Source: an uncultured Dehalococcoidia bacterium (GTDB lineage Bacteria; Chloroflexota; Dehalococcoidia; Lucifugimonadales; UBA1123). Taken from it: a DNA stretch of 64,000 nucleotides. Each line of letters starts with the position of its first letter. Position 1 is the stretch's first letter. Where the stretch lies: the NCBI GenBank assembly GCA_958296105.1, contig OY282441.1:717800-781799 (forward strand). The letters are read 5' to 3'. Positions 1,916-10,827 of the stretch are shown piece after piece. Both the position numbers and the translations under genes were made by a program. Under the pieces are notes generated by a model. The model was not told the origin of the DNA and did not search any database. It saw only the letters and a list, made by a program, of their open reading frames with translations.

Positions 1916-3343
1916 TCATATTCCTAGTGTCTTCCGTAACTGTCTATATTGACCGTTGGATGCTATGTTTTCGAGCCGGTTCTTCTGGTATTTCTTGATG
2001 AACCTCAGCATCTCGGTCAGCCTAGGATTTACCGCCCGCGTAATCAGCGTTGCGGCCAGTTCCTGATACCGATCCGCACACGGTAGAAATTGCAGGCGCG
2101 AAGCAACTTCCGAATCGTGGACAAGATTGATGAACTCGCGGATGTGACCATCAGAGAATCGTGTTATCAGATCGTCATAGTGATCTCGGGCAGCCCAAGA
2201 GATCCCATAGCCGTTGCCAATACGACACATTGTGACCGTCTTGACATATTTTGCCCAGACTGTTCTGGGAACATCTCCACTTTTGGGTACAAGACGACTC
2301 AGAAGTCTGGCAGGGGCCGGCTCTGTATAGAAATTATGCCATCCGCGGTGTGCCATCATCAGGTTATCCAAGGCAGTTGACATTTCGGCAGCGCGGGTTT
2401 CTTTGGTTAAGAACTCCGTCCCGTCGACTATTTCGATAAACTCGCGGGCCAGTTTCGCTCTGGATGCTTCGCCATTGACAGCGAGCGTTGCCTGATGCAA
2501 TCCGACTTCTCGGCGTGCACCCACTGAAACAACGGCCCAGACCGACGGTGCTACAAGTTTGATGTTGTCCTTGACCTGAGTATCAACACTCGTGTCCGTG
2601 TACATTCCAAGAATCGCGCGGAGCAGGGACTCTGACAATTCTTCAGGTAGTGACGGTAATCTCGTCGCAATGAGTGGCACCTCAGTATCAGAGAGTTGCT
2701 CTGTACGCAGGCTGTTCAGCAACCTGCGTACTTCAATGACTGGACCGGCAGGATCCTTTGCTATTACCTCTACGATACATGTCTCGAGCCAGCTAATGAT
2801 CTGCAATCCCGTGATTTCGTTCTGGTTTGGATGGGCTGCACTAGCATGGTTTCTCATGTTCCGGACGTAGTCCAGATGTCGAAAACCGTTCTCAGTGATA
2901 ATGCCTGTTGTATGGCAACCGCGGATCAGTTCCCAGTCGTCGAGCTTTTCCAAGTCGGCTTCGACCCTGAGTTTCGACCGTCGATTAGGATCATTGACCA
3001 CACTGTCGAAGAAATACGCAAGATCGAACTGAGTGACCTTCTGGCGTAGGTTCCTGACAGTCTCGTTCCAAAGGTAGTTCAACGCTGCATCAAAGAGACC
3101 TACCGCACACGCAGCTGCGAACTTGGAGATGTAGACCGCCGCCGCCTTCTGATCATCTGTCAAAACCCCGAGAACGGTCGACATATTTTGGAATACAGGA
3201 CGGCGACGATCGACCGGGACTAGGATATCATCTTTGGGCAATCCCTCCAGATCCAAGTATGAGTCGAGTTGCGTGCCAAACGCCTCAACCGCCGGGGCGA
3301 TCTCTATACGTGAGTATGGTTCCATGCTTACATCAGTATCCAC
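1916..3343 (-). CDS. Uncharacterised protein with HEPN-like RNMRNH motif
   Basis: This protein of about 475 residues is not one I recognise by family. A central alpha-helical part contains YVRNMRNHASAAHPN (arginine about 161, histidine about 166), an R-x4-H arrangement typical of HEPN RNase domains and preceded by helices as in those folds. No signal peptide or membrane segment is visible. The frame is open to a TTG at 3403, but a promoter-like pair ends at 3394, so I prefer the GTG at 3343 (GGAG eight bases upstream) or the ATG at 3325. Codon use is less GC-biased than in flanking housekeeping genes. It lies inside the repeat-bounded island beside TIR/SLOG genes, so a defence role is possible but unproven. 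Confidence 0.7.
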   Translation of the reverse strand: MDTDVSMEPYSRIEIAPAVEAFGTQLDSYLDLEGLPKDDILVPVDRRRPVFQNMSTVLGVLTDDQKAAAVYISKFAAACAVGLFDAALNYLWNETVRNLRQKVTQFDLAYFFDSVVNDPNRRSKLRVEADLEKLDDWELIRGCHTTGIITENGFRHLDYVRNMRNHASAAHPNQNEITGLQIISWLETCIVEVIAKDPAGPVIEVRRLLNSLRTEQLSDTEVPLIATRLPSLPEELSESLLRAILGMYTDTSVDTQVKDNIKLVAPSVWAVVSVGARREVGLHQATLAVNGEASRAKLAREFIEIVDGTEFLTKETRAAEMSTALDNLMMAHRGWHNFYTEPAPARLLSRLVPKSGDVPRTVWAKYVKTVTMCRIGNGYGISWAARDHYDDLITRFSDGHIREFINLVHDSEVASRLQFLPCADRYQELAATLITRAVNPRLTEMLRFIKKYQKNRLENIASNGQYRQLRKTLGI

Positions 3344-3393
3344 GTGCAATCTCCACACTGATACTCTTACATCTTCCTGTCTTCCGGTTCCAA

Positions 3394-3422
3394 ATTGTAC
3401 CAAATCGCCAGTTTAGCTTCAA
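3394..3422 (-). promoter_or_regulatory. Predicted sigma70-type promoter of the HEPN-like gene
   Basis: Read on the minus strand this is TTGAAG (3422-3417), a 17-base spacer, and TACAAT (3399-3394). It sits about 50 bases upstream of the GTG start at 3343, which argues against the upstream TTG as the start. Confidence 0.55.
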
Positions 3423-3937: not shown

Positions 3938-4177
3938 TATGAACACCTTAGCTTAGCTATTGATGACCTGCCATTTCCACTGCCACCCACTCTCGATGAA
4001 CAAAGTGGAGGCGGCGCCGTTCTCAGCGTCTCCGACTGTCGAAGCGACCTGCGGGAAAGTAAGCGCATCGTGGGGGAGGACATATTCACTCCGATGACGA
4101 CTGGCCAAATCCGAGTCGCAGAGCTCGACCTACCAGCCATTGGTCGGCTGCGCAGCCTCTATACGGGGGTGGGCTGA
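3938..4177 (+). CDS. Possible small or 5'-truncated gene coupled to the TIR gene
   Basis: An open frame of 79 codons after the in-frame TGA at 3935-3937 ends in TGATG, so its stop overlaps the TIR start by one base. Its composition looks coding (LPPTLDEQ, RIVGEDIFTP, RVAELDLPAIGRLRSLY). I could not find a normal start: the first in-frame ATG is near codon 50. It could be the 3' part of a truncated gene, a gene with a rare start codon, or chance. No family is recognised. It fills the gap between the IS1-like remnant and the TIR gene. Confidence 0.35.
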   Translation, partial: YEHLSLAIDDLPFPLPPTLDEQSGGGAVLSVSDCRSDLRESKRIVGEDIFTPMTTGQIRVAELDLPAIGRLRSLYTGVG

Positions 4178-5355
4178 TGGTGGAAGCCAACGTCCCGTCT
4201 CCCTTCATGCTCTACGTCGTTTGGCATCGGGAATACGATCTTGGGGCCAAGATCGCAAAAACGCTTCACAACCACTTCGGTTCCCATCGCTACAGAAACA
4301 TTGCAGGGGGCGCGGGTGTGCGCGTGATTTTTCGCAATTCGGCTGCGCCTGACTCTCAGACCCCTATTCCAGTCGACTGGGACAGCGCTGACACGACTGC
4401 AACCGTGACCTTGATCGACCGATCGCTTGCAAATGATCGAGCATGGGTACGGTATGTTATTGGCTTGTCGAGAGAAGCCGATGTCAGGGGTTTCCGTGCC
4501 CGAGTGTTTCCGGTCGAAATGGAAGCGGGTACCCTCGATATCGGGATCGAGGAGCAAGCGTTCCGCTGGGTCCGTTGGACGGGTACGAGTGACGAACGCG
4601 AGCAACGGCTCATCAGAGACATCACCCACGAGTTCTGTAGGATGCTGAGACATCACTTGGCGCAACTTCAGCATCCAGATGCCGAAGACGACCTCGAACA
4701 ATACTTGAAGAAAGTCAACGTCTTCCTCAGTCATTCCAAGCACGACGGACATGGTGAACTGGTGGCTGAAAAAATCCGAGACTGGTTCCACAGCAACAGC
4801 GCCCTATCGAGTTTCTTGGACGTCCATGATATACCCGCGGGGCTGCCATTTTCGACGGTCATCAACCACTCCATCCAAGACGGAATTTTGGTAGCGGTGT
4901 ATACTGATTCCTACTCGTCTCGCGAGTGGTGCAGACATGAAGTGATCAGAGCAAAGCTCATGAACGTTCCGATGCTGGTTGTGGATTGCCTGCAAACGCT
5001 CGATGAGCGCGCCTTCCCCTACTTGGGGAATGTGCCTTTCATCCGCATGGATCCAGATAGAACGGATCGGATCGATCAGATAGCGGGCATCCTGCTAGAC
5101 GAAACATTCAAGGACTTCCTCTGGAGGTGCAGGGTCGAGAGGCTCCGCGAACTGCATCCACAGACCATGTTCACAGCGCGTTCGCCAGAGTTGATATCGC
5201 TTGCGAGCTTCCCTGACTCAACTGGTGACTTCGAACGAGTAATCGTCTATCCCGATCCACCGCTAGGCACAGGGGAGGCGCGGCTGTTCTCTGACGTTGC
5301 ACACAATGTGAGTCTGTACAACCTGACTGAGTGGCTGGCGGAAGTGGGAGAATGA
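4177..5355 (+). CDS. TIR-domain protein, probable NAD-cleaving defence effector or signal producer
   Basis: Of 392 residues, the C-terminal half (about 178-300) is a TIR domain. It starts VNVFLSHSKHDGHG, has FLDVHDIPAG in the BB-loop position, and carries SSREWCRHEV with the presumed catalytic glutamate E255 (WCxxE). The N-terminal 130 residues (FMLYVVWHREYDLGAKIAKTL, then VTLIDRSLANDRAWVRYVI) look like a second, degenerate TIR-like fold lacking that glutamate. No signal peptide is seen. TIR enzymes of this kind cleave NAD+ or make cyclic ADP-ribose signals. The stop overlaps the next start (ATGA), coupling it to the SLOG gene. Function in anti-phage defence is inferred from family and context. 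Confidence 0.85.
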   Translation: MVEANVPSPFMLYVVWHREYDLGAKIAKTLHNHFGSHRYRNIAGGAGVRVIFRNSAAPDSQTPIPVDWDSADTTATVTLIDRSLANDRAWVRYVIGLSREADVRGFRARVFPVEMEAGTLDIGIEEQAFRWVRWTGTSDEREQRLIRDITHEFCRMLRHHLAQLQHPDAEDDLEQYLKKVNVFLSHSKHDGHGELVAEKIRDWFHSNSALSSFLDVHDIPAGLPFSTVINHSIQDGILVAVYTDSYSSREWCRHEVIRAKLMNVPMLVVDCLQTLDERAFPYLGNVPFIRMDPDRTDRIDQIAGILLDETFKDFLWRCRVERLRELHPQTMFTARSPELISLASFPDSTGDFERVIVYPDPPLGTGEARLFSDVAHNVSLYNLTEWLAEVGE

Positions 5356-6185
5356 CAACTAACTATGAACAGAAGCCCAGTGTCATCGCGGTCTCGACAT
5401 CGGAGAGCCCGGATATGGCGGTGTTTGGACTAAGTGATGGACATTTGCGAGACGCCATGGCCGAAATCGCCACGCACCTCCTGGCGCGCGGGGCGAACCT
5501 GGCTTATGGCGGAGATCTGCGCGGCGGCGGCTTCACGGAGTTATTGTTCGAGCTGGTTCTGCGCTACCGGCGTCTATCAGAAACGGCTGGTGACGTCCGC
5601 GTGACCAACTACCTAGCGTGGCCCGTCCACATCCAGATGACTGCCGATAAGCTGAACGCACTTGCCGAGGGGCTCTCCGAGACTGCACTTCTGGCACTAA
5701 TCGGAAGGGATGGCGAGCGACTGGCGCCGGAAGATCGCCATGCGCTTGCAGAGCATGAACCCGGCGCCGATGAGTGGTCCAATGGCCTGACAGTGATGCG
5801 GCAGACCATGCGCGACGAGACGGATGCGCGCATTGTGCTTGGTGGGCGGGTAGAGGGTTACAGGGGGTGTATGCCGGGTATCGCGGAAGAGGCGCTGTTG
5901 TCACTTCAGTCCGGCCAAGCGGTGTTCCTGCTCGGCGGCTTCGGGGGTTGCGCGCGAGACATTGCGGAAACACTTATGCTCGTAGACCCTTGGGCTGGCT
6001 CACGTCCTGCATGGCCAGGACGGGCAAAGTTCGAGGGCTATACTCCGGACAGTCTGCACAACGGACTTTCAAGGGAAGAAAACCGCATACTTGCGGATAC
6101 TCCTTACATCGATCAGGCTGTGACCCTAGTTCTGCGAGGTATCAACCGATTACGCGCCAACAGGGCCAGTGGCGACTCAGGGTAG
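5352..6185 (+). CDS. SLOG-domain protein (nucleotide-derived ligand sensor partner of TIR)
   Basis: The 277-residue protein has the Rossmann-like SLOG/LOG signatures: VIAVSTSESPD near the start, NLAYGGDLRGGGFT (about 49-62), VLGGRVEGYRGCMPGIAEEA (162-181) and VFLLGGFGGCARDIAETL (191-208). Many SLOG domains bind nucleotides or NAD derivatives; in Thoeris ThsA a SLOG domain senses the molecule made by TIR protein ThsB. Here the SLOG protein has no visible SIR2, nuclease or membrane effector domain, so it would have to act with another protein or be an enzyme itself. Its ATG lies inside the TIR stop codon (ATGA), a tight two-gene operon. Confidence 0.8.
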   Translation: MTTNYEQKPSVIAVSTSESPDMAVFGLSDGHLRDAMAEIATHLLARGANLAYGGDLRGGGFTELLFELVLRYRRLSETAGDVRVTNYLAWPVHIQMTADKLNALAEGLSETALLALIGRDGERLAPEDRHALAEHEPGADEWSNGLTVMRQTMRDETDARIVLGGRVEGYRGCMPGIAEEALLSLQSGQAVFLLGGFGGCARDIAETLMLVDPWAGSRPAWPGRAKFEGYTPDSLHNGLSREENRILADTPYIDQAVTLVLRGINRLRANRASGDSG

Positions 6186-6718: not shown

Positions 6719-7324
6719 TTACCGCCCGCATTGCGTTACGGCGTTGCGAGCATCAAGGGCTGAGTATTTGCCCATTCCCCCATCAAGTTGGGCGCTGAGC
6801 GAAACCATATTTTCTCCGGCCTGACGACCTGCCGCCGAGACTGCGTCATACTCCGCTCGCACCCAAGCGCAGCCGAAATCCCTCACGATGGGATTGGATG
6901 TCTGACTGGGTTGTGTTTGGCCAGTCTGTGTCTGCCTGGGCTGTGTCTGCCCGCATTGCGTTACGGCGTTGCGAGCGTCAAGGGCTGAGTATTTACCCAT
7001 TCCTCCATCAAGTTGGGCGCTGAGCAAAACCATGTTTTCTCCGGACTGACGACCTGCCGCCGAGACTGCGTCGTACTCCGCTTGCACCCAAGCGCAGCCG
7101 AAATCCCTCACAATGGGATTGGATGTCTGACTGGGTTGTGTTTGGCCAGTCTGTGTCTGGCTGGGTTGTATCTGTCTCTGCTGACCCTCGAACTGCTGCT
7201 GGACGATTGGGGTTGGTACAGGTGCGGGGAGGGCAGGCTGGGACGGCGGTTCTGCGTCACAGCCCGCGATCAGCGTGAACGCGAGAATCATCGCTCCCGC
7301 GAAGGCGAATCTGGTTCTGGTCAT
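6719..7324 (-). CDS. Lipoprotein with a tandemly duplicated domain
   Basis: A signal peptide ending in the lipobox LIAGC (residues about 18-22) predicts a lipid-anchored exported protein. After a Pro/Gln-rich linker come two nearly identical units of about 75 residues, each with QTSNPIVRDFGCAWV, AEYDAVSAAGRQ, GENMV and GGMGKYSALDARNAVTQCG, joined by a TQTGQTQPSQT linker. Each unit has two cysteines that could pair. The near identity, also at DNA level (6721-6960 against 6950-7190), shows a recent duplication. Family unknown. It heads a short minus-strand unit with the small membrane protein and lies inside the island. Confidence 0.75.
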   Translation of the reverse strand: MTRTRFAFAGAMILAFTLIAGCDAEPPSQPALPAPVPTPIVQQQFEGQQRQIQPSQTQTGQTQPSQTSNPIVRDFGCAWVQAEYDAVSAAGRQSGENMVLLSAQLDGGMGKYSALDARNAVTQCGQTQPRQTQTGQTQPSQTSNPIVRDFGCAWVRAEYDAVSAAGRQAGENMVSLSAQLDGGMGKYSALDARNAVTQCGR

Positions 7325-7617: not shown

Positions 7618-8013
7618 ATGTCTCTTGGCAGCTATCTGCGGCAGGTAAGGCATACTCGTCAACTCTCGCTCCGCGGTGTGCAGCGACTGGCAAAGGAACA
7701 GCGCCTAGGGGCAGAGTTGAGTAGCGGCTACCTCAGTATGCTGGAGCGAAACGAGGTCAAGGAGCCTTCTCCAAGGATCCTCTACACTCTCGCGTCAATC
7801 TACGAGGTCGACTACATCGATTTGATGCGGAGGGCGGGATACATTCCGAATGAGGCTGACATGGGAGGAGATCAGCCCGCGCGCGTTGCGTTCAGGGGCG
7901 CTTCGCAACTGTCCAAGGAGCAGCAGCAGCGTGTTCAGCGCATGATCGACTTCGAGCTAAGTGAATCCCGCAGGTCGAAGGGGCGTGGAAAAACAGAGGA
8001 CGCCGATGTCTAG
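7618..8013 (+). CDS. XRE-family transcriptional regulator
   Basis: The 131-residue protein starts SLGSYLRQVRHTRQLSLRGVQRLA and continues SSGYLSMLERNEVKEPSPRILYTLASIYEV, a standard Cro/CI-type helix-turn-helix (residues about 4-66). The C terminus is short and charged. GAGGAGG lies upstream of the ATG. The gene overlaps the start of the ImmA/IrrE-like protease gene (ATGTCTAG), the usual repressor/anti-repressor-protease pairing seen in mobile elements and defence loci. A perfect inverted repeat upstream is a likely operator. Confidence 0.85.
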   Translation: MSLGSYLRQVRHTRQLSLRGVQRLAKEQRLGAELSSGYLSMLERNEVKEPSPRILYTLASIYEVDYIDLMRRAGYIPNEADMGGDQPARVAFRGASQLSKEQQQRVQRMIDFELSESRRSKGRGKTEDADV

Positions 8014-8091
8014 AGTTACTGGCTTGGCGGAGAACGGGAGCAATCCACCAATATTCGTGGAAAAACAGAGGACGCCGATGTCTAGGGTTAC
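7984..8091 (+). repeat. Duplicated translation-initiation segment of the protease gene
   Basis: A 36-base sequence (7984-8019) containing a ribosome site (CAGAGGA), ATGTCTAG and the following codons recurs 72 bases later (8056-8091) with one mismatch. The offset is 24 codons, so both ATGs (8006 and 8078) are in the same frame and each has its own ribosome site. Confidence 0.8.
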
Positions 8092-8965
8092 GAACTCGGA
8101 CCGGCTTTCGATTAGGGATCAAGCCGAGCGCTTTCTCGACACACACGGGTTCTCCACTCCCCCTCTGCCTCCTGATCAGGCCCTCGAGGCGCGGAACCTG
8201 GAGGTCGTCCAACTCTCACTCGACGACATTCTGATCAAAGTCAATTTGCCTCCGGAAGAACATGAGAAGGTCCAAGCTATGCTCGACGCCAGAGAACGAA
8301 CGGTGGCGTTCAGGCGTGGCCTACCCGAGCAGAAGAAGAGGTGGGGGGCGCTTCACGAGGTGGCTCACGAGTTCATCCCTTGGCAGAGAGATATCCTCTA
8401 CTGCTGTCCATTGCTCTGGCTTCCGGCTCACGTACAAAGGCAGTTCGAGGCGGAGGCGGACGTGTTCGCTGCCGAGGCTTTCTTCTTCGGCCAACAGTTC
8501 CACAAGAAGGCATTTGTGGGTGACTTGAGCCTCGCCACAGCGATCGAGCTTGCTACCGATGTCTATGGAACCTCATTCCACGCGACATTCGCTCACTACG
8601 TCGAAGGAAGCCCCCTGCCGCGCTGCCTGCTCGTGTGGAAACCGAAAGACGAGGGCGGATCAGCGCGGCCCTCCGGGGAGCTAGAGCTGCACTACTACGT
8701 GAAGTCGAAGGGTTTCCTCGGGCATATCTCCCCAGGACAGATAGCGGACCCGGATGGGGCAGTGACCAAGCTGTTCAGAGACTCCAGCCCAGGGGTCATC
8801 AATCACGAGATGATATTCGCCGGTATGTCGGGGCAGGGCTACGTCGCGCAGGCTGAGTCGTTTTCGAACTCATACAACGTCTTCACGCTGATTTCTCAGC
8901 CAACCCGTAGGTCAACTCAACCAGTAGGGAGTCTCGATGCTTGCCGAACTCCAAGGCCGGCGTAA
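8006..8965 (+). CDS. ImmA/IrrE-type metallopeptidase
   Basis: The protein (319 residues from 8006, or 295 from 8078) carries the zinc-protease motif HEVAHEF at about residues 117-123 and EAEADVFAAEAFFFG downstream, supplying the third metal ligand. This is the ImmA/IrrE layout (DUF955). Such proteases cleave the XRE repressor encoded just upstream in response to a signal. Two equivalent starts exist because a 72-base segment with ribosome site and ATG is duplicated. The C-terminal 130 residues (LELHYYVKSKGFLGHISPG and following) are an additional domain I do not recognise, possibly for signal sensing. Confidence 0.8.
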   Translation: MSRVTGLAENGSNPPIFVEKQRTPMSRVTNSDRLSIRDQAERFLDTHGFSTPPLPPDQALEARNLEVVQLSLDDILIKVNLPPEEHEKVQAMLDARERTVAFRRGLPEQKKRWGALHEVAHEFIPWQRDILYCCPLLWLPAHVQRQFEAEADVFAAEAFFFGQQFHKKAFVGDLSLATAIELATDVYGTSFHATFAHYVEGSPLPRCLLVWKPKDEGGSARPSGELELHYYVKSKGFLGHISPGQIADPDGAVTKLFRDSSPGVINHEMIFAGMSGQGYVAQAESFSNSYNVFTLISQPTRRSTQPVGSLDACRTPRPA

Positions 8966-9044: not shown

Positions 9045-9540
9045 CTATCTTCCGGAAACATGGGGATACCACCGAGCGCCTTTCCGGTTCTTCGCGAATC
9101 TGACGAACGAATTATCAGGAATGACCCTGTTCCTGCGTTTGTAAGCGTCATCAATCCAACGAGCCACCTCGTTCGGCGAATCACTCCAGTCATGCAAGTC
9201 GGCGAAGCCACACTTGACATTGTAGTAGAGGCGAGGCGGTATTGTGTGCGGATTATAACTGCTCTTACCAAAGGAAGGATGTGTCGGCAGGAAGATGCCA
9301 ACCAAGCCCGACCTCGAATTCGCTTCAGTGTCGCGTATACTGGCGGCGATCTCCCAGTCGATGTGCTTCCTTCTCCATGTATCACTGCCTATCAGCACCA
9401 CGGTTACTGTCGAGTCGCTCAGGTAATCATCACGGATTCGACGGCTGATCTCGTCTAATTTCGACCCTTTGGGGATGTCGTCTATCTTGACTGACCTCGA
9501 GTCCATGATGTCGTATAAGTCGGCGAAAAGCCTCTCGAAG
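9045..9540 (-). pseudogene. ThsB-like TIR domain (DUF1863 type), 5'-truncated at repeat junction
   Basis: The minus strand reads FERLFADLYDI, then RRIRDDYLSDSTVTVVLIGS, RRKHIDWEIAASIRD, RSGLVGIFLPTHPS and ADLHDWSDSPNEVARWIDDAYKRR. These blocks are typical of MTH538/DUF1863 TIR-like proteins, the family of Thoeris ThsB. The coding pattern runs unbroken to about 9540 and stops at the edge of the right-hand direct repeat, so the first beta strand and the first catalytic-pocket segment are missing. An internal ATG at 9506 would give 153 residues. It may be inactive, or use a start in foreign sequence. Confidence 0.7.
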
Positions 9541-9735
9541 GCGGATGGACGGCGAGGTGAAGGCGCGACGGTTCGGCGAGCTATTGGAAGCTCACGCGGG
9601 TCTGGATGCGCTCCTGCCGTCCAAGTAGGGCGAATCCAACGGACTGTGGGAGTGTGGGCGATCCGAACCGCATCCGCAAGCGACGTCGCGCTGTGGAAAG
9701 ATCAGTCGTCCAAGCTGCCGGGGAACTCGCCTGCG
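9541..9735 (+). repeat. Right copy of island-flanking direct repeat
   Basis: This is the colinear copy of 1601-1795. It contains a codon-perfect but headless 3' end of the P-loop/DRTGG gene (MDGEVKARRF to stop) and runs into the true 3' end of the VOC gene. Several differences from the left copy are at third codon positions or are conservative, suggesting that the copies came from related but not identical genomes. Confidence 0.85.
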
Positions 9736-10151: not shown

Positions 10152-10256
10152 GACGGCCTCCTGTTTCCAGTGGTGTTCAAGTGAGTGTATATGCGATGCG
10201 GCGGTCGGTCAATGTCGAGATGGGCAGGGGCCTGTTTCAATTTTGTGGGTGGGGCG

Positions 10257-10827
10257 TCACTCTCACCCTAGACCTCTCACTTCAAGGGGGAGGGGATTTC
10301 ACCAACGCAGCACTCTACCCTCCAAGGAGAGGGGATTTCACCAACGCAGCACTCTACCCTCCAAGGAGAGGGGATTTCACCAACGCAGCACTCTACCTTC
10401 GAGGGACAGGGGGCTTCACTAACGCGCTGGGGGGGGCGTCACCCTCACCCTCACCCTCTCCCTCAAGGGAGAGGGGATTTCACCAACGCAGCACTCTACC
10501 TTCAAGGGGGAGGGGGCTTCACTAACGCGCTGGGGGTCGGGCGTCACTCACATTCTCCCTAGCACTCTCATTTCGAGGGAGAGGGGGCTTCACTAATGCG
10601 CTTCGGGTGGGACGTCACCCTCTCCCTCGCACTCTCTCTTCGAGGGAGAGGAGATTTCACCACCGCAAGCGCTCTACCTTCGAGGGAGAGGGGGCTTCAC
10701 TAACGCGCTGGGGATCGGACGTCACCCTCACCCTAACCCTCTCCCTTCGAGGGAGAGGGGACTTCCGTACCGCAGACATCCCACTTATAGGGATAGGGGG
10801 CTTCACTAACGCGACCAAGCTGATACA
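10257..10827 (+). repeat. Array of palindromic GAGGGAGAGGGG-type intergenic repeats
   Basis: About a dozen units of a purine-rich core (GGGAGAGGGG) alternate with two tails, TTTCACCAACGCAGCACTC and GCTTCACTAACGCGCTGGGG. Many are preceded by CACCCTCACCCTCTCCCT, so they fold as hairpins. Three adjacent units around 10283-10400 are exact 39-base tandem copies. The same core recurs singly at several other intergenic sites in the window. No gene is supported between 10152 and 10943. Spacers are not unique, so this is not CRISPR. Confidence 0.85.

Follow-up and report, generated by a model that had tools for sequence, protein, structure and literature searches.

A Thoeris-related pair of overlapping TIR and SLOG genes in a genomic island of an uncultured Dehalococcoidia bacterium

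The 64,000-nucleotide stretch of contig OY282441.1 analysed here (the window), from an uncultured Dehalococcoidia bacterium, carries a gene for a double-TIR protein whose end overlaps the start of a gene for a stand-alone SLOG protein. The pair is part of a three-gene kind of system that is related to Thoeris and is more widespread than an earlier note on this DNA (the original prediction) supposed; the kind is known, the variant is apparently unnamed in the databases and literature searched, and a TIR-SLOG subtype may already be classified in the literature. We think it somewhat probable that the pair belongs to an abortive-infection module akin to Thoeris, one in which TIR would take the place of SIR2 as the nicotinamide adenine dinucleotide (NAD+)-consuming enzyme (NADase) that SLOG switches on. 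The genes, their coupling, the catalytic residue, the fusions and the ThsB association described below are read from sequence and the folds from models. The features of the pair are as follows (all + strand):

4177-5355: double-TIR protein, 392 amino acids (aa), a probable NADase effector (or signal maker)
4189-4680: its N-terminal, probably degenerate TIR-like domain, residues 5-168
4714-5115: its TIR domain, residues 180-313, with the catalytic Glu255 codon (in WCRHE) at 4939-4941
5352-5355: ATGA start/stop overlap (translational coupling)
5352-6185: stand-alone SLOG protein, 277 aa, PF18163 'SLOG cluster2', with invariant S15, R150 and E180

The gene pair and its relatives

Both open reading frames (ORFs) and their predicted ATGA coupling were recovered, with the SLOG ATG at 5352. 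The SLOG protein is a member of PF18163 by sequence (Pfam E 3.1e-70; 237.2 bits against a gathering cut-off of 25.3), and the TIR protein matches PF13676 over residues 182-292 (E 4.3e-10). PADLOC 2.0.0 gave just a weak ThsB match for the TIR protein (2.5e-5), and NCBIfam gave it 43.3 bits against the 220 needed for ThcB4 and 28 against the 600 of a retron-TIR model. No model in PADLOC 2.0.0 or NCBIfam names the SLOG protein of the window, so genomes with such a system are probably under-annotated for defence, and the literature searched describes no system for PF18163. A promoter scan was uninformative (2 seen, 1.4 expected); a terminator scan gave 5 where 2.0 were expected.

We compared 93 loci, namely the window, 11 plasmid records found by tblastn, at least 80 species-genome loci found by a pattern scan and one viral-contig locus; some are from related species, and the loci are not independent of one another. 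The patterns of the species-genome scan were peptides around PGIAEE and GGFGGC, so the invariance of those residues is partly by construction, and the ThsB, TIR and accessory genes of the loci were assigned with profiles that we built from few seeds. TIR and SLOG are split in 63 of the 93 loci and fused into one protein in 22, and the two therefore probably act as one unit. An ATGA or GTGA overlap joins them in 47 of the 63 split loci, the window among these. In the remaining 8 loci the profile scan found no TIR: four of them (L039, L058, L071 and L090) start within ~550 bp of the SLOG match, L003 has an IS3 element between TIR and SLOG, and L062, L091 and L092 are without explanation. At the IS3 locus, which is in Rhizobium bangladeshense (L003:5476-8795), the N-terminal part of the separated TIR gene is an ORF of its own. 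The fusions and the spread over 93 loci escaped the original prediction, as did the third gene and the island described below.

In a tree of 51 SLOG rows the window's smallest well-supported set holds 13 rows. Besides the window these are 11 from Chloroflexota, Binatota, Entotheonella, Acidobacteriota, Pseudomonadota, Campylobacterota and one archaeon, and a Bradyrhizobium row (L088) whose branch is long and whose placement is unsure. The set fits horizontal spread, and several of its rows are metagenome-assembled genomes in short contigs, for which a binning error is possible. PF18163 was found in just one of 98 related genomes searched, the source genome of the window. A phage origin of the SLOG gene is unlikely, because tblastn against phage records gave no match and three scans of viral contigs gave one SLOG locus.

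Predicted folds and conserved residues

The WCxxE glutamate of the TIR domain is intact, as had been claimed: Glu255 is invariant in 49 of 49 aligned sequences. AlphaFold2, run on alignments of homologues (48 of the 63 listed TIR stretches for the TIR protein and 50 of the 76 listed for SLOG), gave confident models of both proteins. In the TIR protein model (predicted local distance difference test, pLDDT, 90.3; predicted template modelling score, pTM, 0.90), residues 179-312 match the NADase SARM1 best among solved structures compared by VIA (Z 16.3, root-mean-square deviation, rmsd, 2.5 over 124 residues), and SPARTA, MyD88, Cat1 and SpbK follow. Having the TIR fold and the catalytic glutamate, the protein is a candidate catalytic NADase TIR. 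The original prediction saw no recognisable killer domain in the pair, and this is not supported, a NADase TIR itself being a plausible killer; its alternative suggestion that the TIR is the effector is supported. The VIA rows of this protein cover residues 178-313, list TIRs and relatives of the deoxyribosyltransferase type and leave the N-terminal domain uncovered. The GFAT, glycosyltransferase and EngA chains that head its Foldseek whole-chain list have TM-scores of ~0.2-0.3 and were set aside as Rossmann-type background.

The extra N-terminal domain had been described as a degenerate TIR, and we hold this with moderate confidence. A profile of residues 5-168 aligned to the protein's own TIR (hhalign) with E 7e-4 and a score of 27.6, collinear over 119 columns, at a probability of just 26%; the highest score among 60 column shuffles was 24.5, and the reversed profile gave 12.6. 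By our reading of the AlphaFold2 model, strands and helices are predicted in the order of a TIR minus helix B. Four residues past a conserved tryptophan (W90; W in 40 and Y in 9 of the 49 sequences), where TIRs carry the catalytic glutamate, this domain has V, L, A, I, F or M in all 49 sequences and Glu in none.

The SLOG model (pLDDT 93.6; pTM 0.91) is not an unrelated fold; its nearest solved fold is the sensor of ThsA, the Thoeris type I effector. First in Foldseek is the BcThsA SLOG bound to 3' cyclic ADP-ribose (3'cADPR) (7uxs, E 2e-5), and the same entry is first in VIA (Z 16.3, rmsd 3.0, 184 residues aligned), tied with EcThsA (16.2) and two other ThsA entries, so that the best ThsA chains lie at Z 15.8-16.3. 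Lower VIA matches are molybdenum-cofactor carriers, TRPM2 and DprA (Z 12-14) and LOG enzymes (12-13). Judged by the model, the SLOG protein of the window has the Thoeris type I sensor fold, and ligand binding is predicted. Sequence searches of solved structures gave no useful SLOG match.

Do the invariant residues of the SLOG family fall where ThsA holds its ligand? S15, S17, R150, E179 and E180 are invariant in 12 SLOG sequences, 11 of them obtained by tblastn without peptide patterns; S15 and R150 lie outside the scan patterns, and the invariance of E179 and E180 holds in these 12 as well. We took for comparison the type I ThsA of a genome (G276) in which the ThsA gene adjoins two TIR genes. 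A global alignment with it was useless; a local one, used for its register alone (E 0.19), places R150 opposite an arginine and E179/E180 opposite a pair of glutamates. Since that alignment is not significant, residue numbering relative to BcThsA is inferred. The text of Ka et al. 2020 (PMC7272460) gives Ser288, Phe357, Arg371 and Glu403 as conserved ligand-site residues of ThsA. According to Bayless et al. 2023 (PMC10022894), R371, E403 and K388 coordinate 3'cADPR in a crystal structure cited there, and changing these residues increased ThsA activity in planta.

The same residues bear on a different role, in which SLOG would be a LOG-type N-glycosidase that acts on a nucleotide or signal and restrains or ends the TIR response, as an off-switch or antidote. 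LOG enzymes have an arginine and a glutamate at like places, so SLOG may itself be catalytic; LOG enzymes match the model, and the invariant Arg, the Glu pair and the glycine-rich turn are kept. The best ThsA chains match better, however, and the LOG phosphoribohydrolase motif PGGxGTxxE is kept in part only, reading MPGIAEEA. We consider this enzymatic role improbable.

A ThsB-type third gene and a proposed working

A third gene, which often accompanies the pair, encodes a ThsB-type TIR, and the window holds a broken copy of it 3.1 kb from the pair:

9045-9541, - strand: 5'-truncated ThsB-type TIR gene without the first 17 of its profile's 96 positions, the break lying at the right repeat of an island (PF08937 E 2.2e-14, profile positions 40-97 of 100)

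Among the loci its best match is the ThsB that adjoins the TIR-SLOG fusion of Aureispira (L008; 56% identical). Of the 93 loci, 57 have a ThsB-type TIR no more than 1 kb away; the number rises to 68 at 3.5 kb and to 72 when all the fetched DNA is counted. The density of such TIRs falls from 0.39 per kb at less than 1 kb to 0.024-0.094 between 1 and 5 kb and 0.007-0.024 between 5 and 8 kb; any second TIR is present within 3.5 kb in 81 loci. Of the suggestion that the pair might be a minimal Thoeris relative, the kinship with Thoeris is supported; the minimal two-gene form is not, given these neighbours and the truncated copy in the window.

The sole other ThsB match of the source genome is an intact gene at C1:956715-957011, ~233 kb from the pair, and the genome has no further TIR_2 domain. 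It is 71% identical to a ThsB ~7 kb from the TIR-SLOG pair of a SAR202 bacterium (L057) and 68% identical to those of L018 and L023, and it is preceded by a small ORF whose family likewise precedes ThsB in L018 and L057. These resemblances make supply of the signal in trans plausible, with the distant ThsB as a possible partner. The small ORF overlaps the intact ThsB (L101:7165-8252, genome C1 ~956.2-957.3 kb, outside the window), and its family occurs in 22 of the 93 TIR-SLOG loci; at L024:2852-5863 the family is found in one ORF together with a patatin-like phospholipase, a possible alternative effector.

Bacterial TIRs are either NAD+-depleting effectors or signal makers, in the account given in PMC12847820. 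In the module that we favour, the ThsB-type TIR would sense infection and make an ADP-ribose-derived signal, and SLOG would bind this signal in its ThsA-related pocket (the fold being taken from the model). Signal-bound SLOG, as partner of the double-TIR protein, would then switch on the TIR NADase, which would deplete NAD+ so that phage growth stops; the degenerate first TIR would probably serve assembly or regulation. Such a system would work as ThsA does with SIR2 swapped for TIR. The main argument that SLOG gates TIR comes from the TIR-SLOG fusions, as in ThsA, where SLOG gates SIR2. In the source genome the effector pair is complete; its neighbouring ThsB survives only as a truncated remnant, which would leave the intact copy ~233 kb away as the sole source of any signal. 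If this is right, one and the same system uses TIR domains for making the signal and for the killing that the signal gates; its SLOG sensor is shared with Thoeris and its weapon is different. Loci with a split pair, an overlapping pair or a fused protein form a natural series that offers a direct test of SLOG control over a TIR NADase.

Several observations weigh against this module. A second TIR within 3.5 kb was not seen in 12 of the 93 loci (some of them on short contigs). The structure matches of the TIR domain include non-enzymatic TIRs such as MyD88 and MAL, so its fold alone proves no function. The SeThsA chain matches the SLOG model at Z 14.2, no better than molybdenum-cofactor carrier proteins at 14.3 (VIA), and because the sequence alignment of SLOG with type I ThsA (above) is not significant, the link to ThsA rests on the fold. 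The roles of signal maker and killer could fall to either TIR. Finally, since the ThsB of the window is broken and the intact copy distant, the system may be decaying in this genome.

The roles could also be distributed otherwise, as we read them into the type III models ThcB4/ThcA of NCBIfam: the double-TIR protein would be the signal maker and SLOG the sensor, with SLOG itself or an unlinked protein as effector. Our type III reference is a single operon (L097) of Rhizobium sophorae, whose ThcA (261 bits, above its cut-off) was found among ten genomes or records searched and whose ThcB4 scores 477 bits against the cut-off of 220 (NCBIfam NF058525, NF058526). Its order is TIR, ThsB-like, ThcB4, ThcA and a large ORF. 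In this one operon, then, an N-domain-TIR gene is followed by a stand-alone SLOG-like gene, as in the window, and further TIR genes stand upstream; given this gene order and the 22 fused loci, the novelty that the original prediction saw in the architecture is not supported. The TIR family of the window matches ThcB4 in profile comparison (E 5e-10 over the TIR domain), and its glutamate is intact; SLOG family and ThcA match weakly (E 7e-5 over 66 columns, probability 62%). On the other side, with a separate ThsB-type TIR so often within 1 kb, this TIR would be redundant in the making of the signal; Pfam finds no effector domain in SLOG, and the fusions of SLOG with TIR look like ThsA and other proteins that join a sensor to an effector. 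The redundancy point fails to separate the two systems, because the reference operon has further TIR genes too. We regard the signal-maker role as unlikely, yet as the most serious competitor of the gated NADase.

By profile, membership of types I, II and III was rejected for the window proteins and the relatives tested. The likeness to Thoeris type I consists in a SLOG of the ThsA sensor fold beside, or fused to, a NAD-consuming type of domain, frequently with a ThsB-type TIR close by; the partner domain here is TIR and in ThsA it is SIR2, and the SLOG is PF18163, not STALD (PF18185), and in most loci a separate protein. Pfam found in neither window protein a SIR2 or PF18185 match (type I effector), a macro domain (the membrane-macro effector of type II) or a protease; the type IV effector is described in PMC12847820 as a caspase-like protease. 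For type III the window proteins fall far under both NCBIfam cut-offs, ThcB4 as given above and ThcA with no match at all. The phage gene TadIII is said in PMC12390725 to protect from Thoeris type III, and this passing mention is all that the literature searched offered on a type III system. A search for STALD PF18185 in 151 genomes of the phylum gave no match, and as no control genome gave a signal its absence there is not established; 274 genomes of another class gave 2 matches, one above the cut-off, and from these came the ThsA compared with SLOG above. Cat1 (CARF-TIR), TIR-SAVED and SPARTA are TIR NADase effectors under sensor-domain control, and the TIRs of Cat1 and SPARTA match that of the window by structure; their sensors are different, being CARF, SAVED and Argonaute, and respond to other signals. 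Predictions of SLOG-TIR systems were reportedly made by Burroughs et al. in 2015.

The island and neighbouring genes

The pair lies within a ~7.7-kb island bounded by direct repeats:

1601-1795, + strand: left 195-bp direct repeat, 3' ends of DRTGG and VOC genes
9541-9735, + strand: right 195-bp direct repeat, 93% identical to the left

The repeats consist of the 3' ends of two genes, one with a DRTGG domain and one of glyoxalase type (VOC). In all three congeneric genomes compared, the two genes are neighbours, the alignment ends are 3 to ~50 bp apart and the island is absent. The G+C content is 52-59% inside the island (2-9 kb), 63% on its left side, 60% from 10 to 11 kb and 62-67% past 11 kb. 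The absence of the island from this site in the congeneric genomes, the single PF18163 genome among the 98 and the ThsB ORF that runs truncated into the right repeat all agree with a decaying island relic without present function. Against this, both ORFs of the pair are full length, E255 and the invariant SLOG residues are kept, and an intact ThsB of the matching subfamily is present elsewhere in the genome; we give the relic explanation little credence.

What might such a system sense? A testable idea comes from genes for the processing of nucleotides or modified bases, which recur near the relatives. At least one of Nmad2 (35 loci), MazG_C (28), uracil-DNA glycosylase (UDG)-like (15) and HMUDK_hel (18) genes is nearby in 38 of the 93 loci, the window excluded; loci such as L083:7365-12639, L078, L086, L011 and L045 have ThsB, Nmad2 and MazG_C together with a UDG-like or 5-hydroxymethyldeoxyuridine (5-hmdU) kinase-like gene. 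The UDG-like and HMUDK (5-hmdU kinase-like) genes overlap in 0 loci (P 1e-6 within the 38 loci and 0.028 against 92, statistics that ignore relatedness). Pfam agreed with the accessory calls for 2 of 2 Nmad2, 2 of 2 MazG_C, 1 of 1 HMUDK_hel and 2 of 3 UDG members.

Nmad2 occurs in 13 of 385 genomes of Rhizobium's class, the centre genome counted. We took a reciprocal look at 12 of 16 Nmad2 places, one per genome other than the centre. Seven are of the same kind, with MazG_C in 7 of 7, ThsB beside Nmad2 in 6 of 7, UDG in 5, HMUDK in 2, both in none and TIR-SLOG in 2; the other five, with a divergent or partial Nmad2, have none of MazG_C, ThsB, UDG, HMUDK or TIR-SLOG. This composition points to ThsB-Nmad2-MazG_C as the tight unit and to TIR-SLOG as one associate of it. 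Systems bearing MazG-C, NMAD and UDG have already been predicted as defence by DefensePredictor (PMC13092281), where a 5-hydroxymethyluracil kinase domain is among the newly validated defence domains and Burroughs et al. 2015 are credited with earlier predictions. The same domain kinds recur beside the TIR-SLOG relatives; the island of the window is without them, and the words TIR, SLOG and Thoeris are absent from the main text of that paper.

In the source genome, Nmad2 and MazG_C are adjacent at C1 ~2.416 Mb (L117:5386-6878), with no ThsB within the 14 kb read, and the Nmad2 match there is reported with one in-frame TGA. In the window itself, none of Nmad2, MazG_C, UDG and HMUDK was found (its first 14 kb were scanned and the window was then rerun). 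As a speculation that we consider rather doubtful, TIR-SLOG could be the movable executor of a larger dispersible circuit. Its sensing arm would consist of ThsB-Nmad2-MazG_C and one of two further genes, UDG-like or 5-hmdU kinase-like, which no locus seen combines. This arm would recognise modified thymidine or uracil in phage DNA or nucleotides, and its ThsB would signal to SLOG so that the TIR NADase fires. The pieces in the source genome would then lie in three places: TIR-SLOG in the window, the small gene with ThsB at ~0.957 Mb and Nmad2-MazG_C at ~2.416 Mb.

Other island genes include an HTH (helix-turn-helix) regulator and a protease that are like capH and capP (7618-8965), a control pair of defence operons; the two overlapping ORFs (131 and 334 aa) carry a 36-nt repeat at 7984-8019 and 8056-8091. 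A 495-aa protein at 1919-3403 (- strand) has no clear family (DUF4145 E 0.09; PD-Lambda-5_B E 0.04), and profiles from the window copies of this gene and of the capP-like gene gave 0 matches in the other 92 loci. A lipoprotein-like ORF at 6722-7324 (- strand) contains a 225-bp tandem duplication (95% identical), and an array of imperfect repeats lies just beyond the island at 10203-10774.

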